Of a stretch of DNA of 32,988 nucleotides, positions 19,119-20,762 are shown piece by piece. The stretch comes from Acidimicrobiales bacterium (GTDB lineage: Bacteria; Actinomycetota; Acidimicrobiia; Acidimicrobiales; SZUA-35). The DNA is taken from positions 76,397 through 109,384 of the forward strand of contig JAHDFR010000005.1 in the NCBI GenBank assembly GCA_020628065.1. The letters run 5' to 3'. A program made the translations under genes and the position numbers. The stretch's first letter is position 1. Each line of letters starts with the position of its first letter. The notes below the pieces were generated by a model. It searched no databases. It had not been told where the DNA came from and was given only the letters and a program-made list of their open reading frames with translations.

Positions 19119-20006
19119 CTAGCGGCGCGTGCGGGCCTGTTGAACTGCGTAGAAGGCAACGGCGGCAGCAGATCCGACATTTATGGAGTCGACCTCACCT
19201 GACATGGGGATTCGAAGACGATCGTCGGCGGCGTCCAACGTCGCCGTTGACAAGCCAGGGCCCTCCGAGCCGAGCAGGATGCCCACAGGCTCATCATCTG
19301 ACAGCATCAAGTCACCGATATCCACGGCGTGCGGATCGGGTGTCAACGCCAGTAATCGGAACCCGCGACGGCTGAGTTGTGCCAGGTCTTCGGGGAAAGG
19401 TCCGAGCCGTGCGTACGGCGTCGAGTACGCCTCACCCATCGAGACGCGGCCGCATCGTCGATACAGCGGGTCACAGCACGACTTGTCCATGACAAAGGCG
19501 TCAACATCGAGAGCAGCAGCGCAACGGAGGATGACCCCAAGGTTCGTCGGATTGTTGATGTTCTCCAGCACGACCGCCGTTCGTACGCCGGTGAGGGCTT
19601 GGTGGAGGTCGAGCAGGGGGCGTCGTCTAAAGCAAGCCAAGACACCCCGGTGCAGGTGATATCCGGTGACGTGAATGAGCACCTGAGGACCGCAGGCGAA
19701 CAGTGGAACATCACCGGGGATCGGCTCGGGAAGGGGCTTTGTCCGTGCGCCGTCCACCAACATCGATTCCAACTGGTAGCCGGCTCTCAGAGCCCGCTCG
19801 ACCACGATGTCACCCTCGGCAATGAAGAAGCCAGCCATGTCGCCGCCGGGGAGCTCCCGCTCTCGGCGCAAGACGTGGTCTCTGAGCCCTTGGAAGACCT
19901 CAATCCGAGTGTCGTCCGGGTCGGTTATTTCGATCCGATTGATGTCAGCGAGGGTACCGGCTGACGTCGGGGCCGACGTGCTCGGTGAACAGCTTAAGAA
20001 CCTCAC
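19119..20006 (-). CDS. TrmH (SpoU) family RNA methyltransferase
   Basis: A SPOUT-fold, SAM-dependent RNA 2'-O-methyltransferase with a substrate-binding N-domain (FFIAEGDIVVERALRAGY) and all three SpoU motifs. Motif 1 is ENINNPTNLGVILRCAAAL, motif 2 is GILLGSEGPGLS and motif 3 is IPMSGEVDSINVGSAAAVAFY. The target RNA cannot be assigned. The start is a problem. The family's N-terminal ITDPDDTRIEVFQGLRD is present, but no ATG, GTG or TTG lies between it and the stop of the upstream SelW-like gene. The nearest start is the GTG at 20006, with ATGs at 20018 and 20033; all overlap that gene by 62-89 bases in another frame. The two genes are therefore translationally linked or the start is unusual. 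Confidence 0.85.
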   Translation of the reverse strand: MRFLSCSPSTSAPTSAGTLADINRIEITDPDDTRIEVFQGLRDHVLRRERELPGGDMAGFFIAEGDIVVERALRAGYQLESMLVDGARTKPLPEPIPGDVPLFACGPQVLIHVTGYHLHRGVLACFRRRPLLDLHQALTGVRTAVVLENINNPTNLGVILRCAAALDVDAFVMDKSCCDPLYRRCGRVSMGEAYSTPYARLGPFPEDLAQLSRRGFRLLALTPDPHAVDIGDLMLSDDEPVGILLGSEGPGLSTATLDAADDRLRIPMSGEVDSINVGSAAAVAFYAVQQARTRR

Positions 20007-20211
20007 CGGGCTCGGCATGACGACCGGTCTCACCCTTGCTGTAAATGGTCTCGCCGTTGACGGTTACATCAAATACACCCTTGGCGCCGGTCACCAGGGT
20101 CAGCTGGTCGATGACGTTCTGGTAGTTGTAGAGAAGTTCGTTCGTCGCGCTCACGGCACGCTCTGAATAGTCTCAAGGGACGCAGTACGCTATTTCAACC
20201 TTGTAGCTCAT
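19945..20211 (-). CDS. SelW-like (Rdx family) selenoprotein with in-frame TGA
   Basis: From the ATG at 20211 the frame reads MSYKVEIAYCVP, then TGA (20175-20173), then DYSERAVSATNELLYNY and on to a TGA stop at 19945, for 88 residues including the TGA-encoded one. Downstream, LVTGAKGVFDVTVNGETIYSK and AEPGEVLKLF match the Rdx/SelW/SelT/SelH thioredoxin-like family, whose N-terminal redox motif is CxxC or CxxU. Here the TGA occupies exactly the second site (C-V-P-U). AGGA lies seven bases before the ATG. A hairpin with a GU-containing loop follows the TGA at SECIS distance. Conventional reading would begin at a GTG (20154) and lose the whole redox motif. Selenocysteine insertion is inferred; the alternative is a nonsense mutation of a Cys codon. 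Family function is thiol redox chemistry. Confidence 0.83.
20146..20160 (-). promoter_or_regulatory. Candidate bacterial SECIS hairpin
   Basis: On the minus strand, 12 bases after the in-frame TGA, CGTGC (20160-20156) pairs with GCGCG (20150-20146). The stem has five pairs, one of them G-U, with the five-base loop CGTGA, whose GU begins 18 bases after the TGA. A short stem with a GU-containing apical loop at about this distance is what SelB recognises in known bacterial selenoprotein mRNAs. Confidence 0.6.
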
Positions 20212-20319
20212 ACATGCATCCTAGCGGTCGCTCCCACCCGGCAGTGTCGTCACCAGGGACGATGATCGTCTTGGCAACAACCGGTCGGCTTGATGACCCT
20301 GGCTGATTGGGCGAGGCGC

Positions 20320-20325
20320 TATATT
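20320..20325 (+). promoter_or_regulatory. Candidate -10 box of the flavodoxin gene
   Basis: TATATT lies eight bases before the ATG at 20334, and no ribosome-binding site is present. This fits a leaderless transcript, common in Actinobacteria. No good -35 hexamer is seen at 16-18 bases. Confidence 0.4.
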
Positions 20326-20333
20326 CACTACGT

Positions 20334-20762
20334 ATGAAGGCGTTGGTCATCTACGAAACTCTGACCGGAAACACGAGGACCGCCTCGTACGAGATTGCGG
20401 GTCGGCTCTCGGCTGCGGGCGTTGCAACCGAGGTCTCCCCAATCACGGCAGTCGATCTGCAGGCGCTCTCCGACGCCGATCTGGTGATCGTGGGCAGTTG
20501 GACCGACGGAATCTTCTTCTTTGGGCAGAGGCCCGGTCGTGCCAGTCGACTGGCCAAGAATCTACCCAGGATCGACGGCAAGAAGGCTGTTGTTTTCTGC
20601 ACCTACGCCCTCGACTGTGGCCCGACCCTCGAAAAACTGGAGAGGATCGTTCGTATGGCCGGCGGGGATGTGCTTGGTGGTTACTCCATCCGCCGCGATG
20701 ATCTCGCCGGTGGGTCGAAAGAGCTGGCCGACCGTCTCCTTGGAGTGCTGGAAAGCACGTAA
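20334..20762 (+). CDS. Flavodoxin-like protein
   Basis: A 142-residue single-domain protein with the flavodoxin fold. The first strand and phosphate loop are MKALVIYETLTGNTRTASYEI, in which T-x-TGNT binds the FMN phosphate. ADLVIVGSWTDGIFFFGQRP fits the second FMN loop, with its aromatic cluster next to the ring. KKAVVFCTYALDCGPTLEKL is the third conserved strand-loop. It should act as a one-electron carrier or NAD(P)H-linked redox partner. It is divergent from the SelW-like gene, and both are redox proteins. Downstream and convergent is the fatty acid desaturase, a di-iron enzyme that needs an electron donor; a functional link is speculative. The ATG at 20334 begins the conserved first strand, so the open extension to 20307 is unlikely. 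Confidence 0.85.
   Translation: MKALVIYETLTGNTRTASYEIAGRLSAAGVATEVSPITAVDLQALSDADLVIVGSWTDGIFFFGQRPGRASRLAKNLPRIDGKKAVVFCTYALDCGPTLEKLERIVRMAGGDVLGGYSIRRDDLAGGSKELADRLLGVLEST

Follow-up and report, generated by a model that had tools for sequence, protein, structure and literature searches.

A SelW-like gene with an in-frame UGA and a SECIS-like hairpin in an Acidimicrobiales bacterium

The selW-like gene and its predicted product

The window, that is, the whole stretch of 32,988 nucleotides analysed here, carries a selW-like selenoprotein gene on its minus strand (19945..20211). The frame opens with an ATG at 20211 and ends with a terminal TGA at 19947-19945, giving a predicted product of 88 residues with selenocysteine (Sec) at residue 13. 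Its translation over minus 20211-19945 reads MSYKVEIAYCVP-UGA-DYSERAV..., where the UGA replaces the second Cys of a C-V-P-C motif. This in-frame TGA (20173..20175, minus strand) is codon 13, the predicted Sec codon, and occupies the second position of CxxU. An AGGA, likely the ribosome-binding site, was read directly at 20219..20222 (minus strand), 7 bases 5' of the ATG. Just downstream of the UGA, a bacterial SECIS-like hairpin spans 20146..20160 (minus strand); its five-pair stem is formed by 20160-20156 with 20150-20146 and closes a CGUGA loop. The hairpin starts after 12 bases past the UGA; counted from that codon, the loop G is base 19 and the loop U base 20. The first in-frame start codon past the UGA is a GTG at 20154, within the hairpin loop. 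The ATG, the AGGA, the frame through the TGA, the hairpin and the GTG all lie where an earlier note on this DNA had placed them.

Two further genes flank selW. A SpoU-family RNA methyltransferase gene (19119..19944, minus strand; PF00588, 1.2e-30) lies directly 3' of it, with an uncertain exact start, and a divergent flavodoxin-like gene (20334..20762, plus strand; PF12641, 1.8e-7, 31.5 bits against a cut-off of 27.5) begins at an ATG at 20334, with a TTG at 20307 in the same frame. Both neighbouring proteins score under the cut-off of each of the eight NCBIfam models listed.

With the TGA read as a residue, the selW product matches the Pfam Rdx family (PF10262) over residues 4-74 (5.9e-18; 65.3 bits, cut-off 22.6) and the SelT/SelW/SelH family model TIGR02174 (51.1 bits, cut-off 34.2), and reaches 71 bits with NF041051 SelTWH_Campy, under the cut-off of 88. 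It is the sole Rdx match in its own genome at E values up to 1. The family match and the motif C10-V-P-U13 bear out the claim of the earlier note that the TGA falls on the second position of a CxxC/CxxU redox motif.

AlphaFold2, given 39 sequences with Cys substituted for Sec, returned a model with a pLDDT of 95.4 and a pTM of 0.86, in which C10-V-P-U13 lies between a strand (3-10) and a helix (16-33). The best Foldseek matches of this model are the SelW-family structures 2fa8 (TM 0.85), 2oka, 2obk and 3dex, and thioredoxins and glutaredoxins match more weakly. The structure 3dex is SAV_2001 of Streptomyces avermitilis, which shares family and fold with the selW product (phmmer E 4.5e-9; TM 0.75-0.82 over chains) but carries Cys (CTQC) where the latter has Sec. 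Mouse selenoprotein W (2npb) matches in fold at TM 0.63 and weakly in sequence (E 0.38); it is a eukaryotic protein, and eukaryotic SECIS elements are located in the 3' UTR, as stated in a passage of PMC1088965, whereas the hairpin found here lies just past the UGA. Because of the modelled fold and the motif, the product is most likely a small thioredoxin-like CxxU thiol/selenol oxidoreductase.

Conservation of the UGA codon and of the hairpin

We searched 148 genomes, comprising the genome to which the window belongs and relatives from its genus, family and order, and found a SelW-like protein in 57 of them, own genome included. The 57th match (G061) extends over only about 24-27 residues, close to the C-terminal end, and was left out of the count at the UGA site. 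The earlier note had anticipated either Cys or TGA at this position in homologues; the codon is TGA in 56/56 sequences that cover the site (30 + 26, the window's own copy included), with protein identity among the UGA-bearing homologues down to 35%. In 39 aligned sequences (the window plus 38 of the remaining 55), the C and UGA positions are invariant. A second collection, which may share genomes with the first, was searched with the part after the UGA, a query that favours neither Sec nor Cys at that position. TGA is present in all 80 loci taken from it (the best 80 of 238), 71 of which carry the motif YCVP[TGA]DY. The titles of these best 80 records mostly name Acidimicrobiales, Acidimicrobiia, Acidimicrobiaceae or other actinobacteria, together with three Chloroflexi or Anaerolineae, and the two nearest records have 83% identity to the selW product over 75 residues. 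Because this search set out from close relatives and retained only the 80 best of 238 loci, Cys forms may exist at greater distance; the family does include such forms, SAV_2001 among them. A plasmid search returned 24 records, all below 60% identity. In the relative G035, a second and diverged Rdx copy (L121) has a TGA at the same site, read by eye as CLQ-U-NY.

An in-frame TGA interrupts the frame in the standard code, and tRNA-Sec was not found in the own assembly; both would fit a pseudogene, an old Rdx gene disabled by the UGA. Such a stop would hardly recur as the same codon in 56/56 and 80/80 (best 80 of 238) sequences. The earlier note had named random stops and frameshifts in close relatives as the mark of a pseudogene; in all 56 sequences the 59 codons that follow the UGA are free of in-frame stops, and the second TGA present in G088 and G048 lies at the C-terminal end. 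Moreover, dN is well below dS. Downstream of the UGA, the window compared with seven congeners gives dN 0.11-0.24 and dS 0.66-2.55; upstream, over 11 codons only, dN is 0.08-0.28 and pS 0.14-0.97, the comparison with L022 there holding one synonymous change only. These values point to purifying selection on the selW-like gene, and we consider a pseudogene extremely improbable.

The part before the UGA also bears on where translation starts. Were the GTG at 20154 the true start, the product would be a shorter Rdx protein without CxxU and the upstream part would be untranslated. This GTG is the first in-frame start after the UGA and is kept in 51/56 sequences, but the other 5/56 have GTC, which is no usual start. 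The Cys at -3 from the UGA is present in 56/56 sequences, and Val at -2 and Pro at -1 in 51/56 each, while the third bases of their codons vary; therefore, the part before the UGA appears to be translated too. A GTG start would also remove the first strand and the redox motif from the fold. The bases that change slowly belong to the hairpin, and the GCC preceding the GTG is among them. Initiation at the GTG thus has next to no likelihood, and a start at the ATG at 20211 is preferred. A standard-code gene finder that starts past the UGA would probably truncate the gene and lose its active site.

The earlier note had described a five-pair hairpin with a GU loop 12 bases past the TGA and had read it as a bacterial SECIS. 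The hairpin is present, and its size and distance agree with the model of bacterial SECIS elements by Zhang and Gladyshev. Bacterial SECIS elements have been described as having a small apical loop with a guanosine and as lying immediately 3' of the UGA (a passage of PMC1088965). The single-sequence folding energy is not special (z -0.09; 80/200 shuffles fold at least as well), and Rfam returned no family for window positions 19500-20700 up to E 10. A hairpin drawn from one sequence is no proof, because its stability is no better than that of shuffles; it is the comparison between sequences that supplies support.

The alignment of 56 sequences, 54 of them distinct, shows pairing in 90.4% of stem cells; each of the two outermost pairs is disrupted in 11/54 distinct sequences. 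Changes on both sides occur in four of the five stem pairs, which 9/500 shuffles reach, and the number of pair types in the stem is reached by 8/500. Double-change cells number 18 against 6.1 in shuffles, and the covariation score is 0.268; 0/500 shuffles reach either value. Relatedness of the sequences inflates these covariation counts, according to the tool's own warning. Shifting the partner strand by 1 to 3 columns lowers the score to at most 0.099 and pairing to at most 69.6%. The codons of the loop region are GCC in 53/56 and GTG in 51/56 sequences. In the 29 closest sequences (30 minus one that carries an insertion), codon +6 is always GCC and codon +7 always GTG; no other alanine, valine or fourfold codon in that stretch lacks third-base changes. 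Pooling both sets gave 136 stretches of 39 bases, 98 of them distinct. The loop opens with CGT or GGT in 98/98 distinct sequences and is CGTGA in 71, and the number of stem pairs formed is five in 64, four in 24, three in 8 and two in 2. The near-invariant loop codons, together with the covariation, are as would be expected of a bacterial SECIS, and the covariation supports the reading given in the earlier note.

Selenocysteine machinery and decoding

SelA makes Sec on its tRNA, with selenophosphate supplied by SelD. In the own genome, selA (391.8 bits, cut-off 267.9) lies on contig C89 and is adjoined by selB, a 618-aa frame whose joined pieces score 254.3 bits (cut-off 242.25); selD (366.7 bits, over its cut-off) lies on contig C14. 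The selD frame (L015:1474-2538) holds a single in-frame TGA in the context HGAG-U-ACK, which we take to be the usual Sec site of SelD. The selenophosphate synthetase of this genome is thus probably a selenoprotein itself. A formate dehydrogenase alpha-like gene on contig C297 (L130:889-2859, minus strand) has an in-frame UGA in CNRT-U-HAPS. It is the only one of six Pfam PF00384 (molybdopterin oxidoreductase) matches with an internal TGA, and it scores 651.6 bits with the formate dehydrogenase alpha model, slightly under the cut-off of 666, with a start codon chosen by the analyst.

The earlier note had pointed to selA, selB, selD and tRNA-Sec in the parent genome: the three protein genes were found, and tRNA-Sec was not found in the draft assembly (432 contigs, 95.2% complete), though it is present in 10/11 congeners. 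In this assembly, Rfam gave five tRNA-Sec candidates, which ARAGORN showed to be tRNAs for Ser, Leu, Leu, Gly and Tyr (scoring covered 150 of 1087 first-look candidates). ARAGORN and Rfam did not find tRNA-Sec around selA/selB or selD, and congener tRNA-Sec DNA gave only short matches to the own assembly (best E 0.06). An assembly gap at tRNA-Sec is plausible here, because the copies of two congeners (G006 and G009) sit at most 250 bases from a contig end.

Among the 148 genomes, tRNA-Sec scoring at least 58 bits was found in 92, and in 52 of the 57 selW-positive genomes, those without it being G000, G007, G017, G023 and G026. ARAGORN called tRNA-SeC with anticodon tca in 30/30 loci and in 10/10 congener loci given to it. 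A selA match is present in 98/148 genomes, namely in 57/57 selW-positive genomes against 41/91 others (Fisher p 2e-14, a value that ignores relatedness). The single-contig relative G044 contains selW, selA and tRNA-Sec. Four genomes (G055, G087, G100 and G105) have a tRNA-Sec of at least 58 bits and no selA match, from incomplete assembly or as remnants.

In-frame UGA codons in at least three genes of the own genome could also arise from organism-wide reassignment, with UGA read as another residue such as Trp or Cys. Against this, selW and many of its copies in relatives still end at a UGA stop, and all three genes with an internal UGA are members of known Sec families, in each case with that codon at the Sec position. 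Moreover, selA, selB and selD are present, and a tRNA-Sec with anticodon UCA was found at 10 congener loci. We therefore regard reassignment as very unlikely, and favor Sec insertion at codon 13.

Taken together, the family assignment, the UGA in all relatives that cover the site, the covarying hairpin and the presence of selA, selB and a UGA-containing selD support the proposal of the earlier note, and minus 20211-19945 is almost certainly a genuine actinobacterial selW-like selenoprotein gene of the Rdx family, as judged from sequence comparison. We propose that ribosomes would start at the ATG at 20211. At codon 13, SelB would deliver Sec-tRNA(Sec) to the UGA, aided by the hairpin just downstream, and after Sec insertion translation would run on to the terminal UGA. 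The product would adopt a thioredoxin-like fold, and its C10-V-P-U13 would link the first strand to the first helix.

A known family and its recurring neighbours

Bacterial SelW-like CxxU selenoproteins are an abundant published family, described since 2005, and the gene reported here is a well supported but ordinary further member. In the passages concerned, SelW-like proteins outnumber every other selenoprotein family in the Sargasso Sea set (PMC1088965) and, along with SelD, are the most widespread in GOS (PMC2398784). A passage of PMC1794560 notes that their Cys homologues are very few or absent in organisms that contain Sec, and reports a SelW-like selenoprotein in Symbiobacterium, filed there under Actinobacteria. 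As described in passages of PMC1088965 and PMC2398784, bacterial SelW-like selenoproteins share with the present gene the SelW family, the CxxU motif and a UGA followed by a small hairpin with a loop G; those passages indicate no basic difference from it, and they leave Acidimicrobiales unnamed. A limited keyword search of the open literature found no paper on selenoproteins of the class Acidimicrobiia. The trait is common in the order, as the 57/148 genomes with a SelW-like protein and the 98/148 with selA indicate.

The trio of selW, SpoU and a divergent flavodoxin-like gene recurs as neighbours (window 19119-20762; loci L020-L049). SpoU lies downstream of selW on the same strand in 26/30 loci, the window included, and the flavodoxin-like gene was matched in 25/30, the window again included; by coordinates, it is divergently upstream in 22 of these and beyond SpoU in 3. 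In the second collection (best 80 of 238), the window's SpoU was matched in 25/80 and the flavodoxin-like gene in 24/80 loci; among the 48 of these loci longer than 5,900 bases, each was matched in 16. Therefore, the link between the neighbours holds in only part of the order, or divergence blurs it.

The function and substrate of bacterial SelW were called unclear in 2005 (a passage of PMC1088965), and the recurring flavodoxin-like and SpoU neighbours offer a testable lead on the substrate. One could imagine the trio as a single selenium-dependent unit, wherein the selW product receives electrons from the flavodoxin-like protein and, either itself or through its Sec-limited translation, adjusts the methyltransferase; we hold this to be unlikely. 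In the window (19944-20033), the ATG or GTG starts in the SpoU frame lie only inside selW (GTG, ATG and GTG, lying 89, 74 and 62 bases upstream of where the selW stop ends). Failed Sec decoding could therefore lower SpoU translation too at this locus.

A general overlap of selW and SpoU, of the kind that would couple their translation, was considered and rejected: in 23/26 loci, SpoU has an ATG, GTG or TTG 0-104 bases past the selW stop. In 1/26 (L021) there is no such start, and in 2/26 (the window and L022) the SpoU start lies only inside selW.
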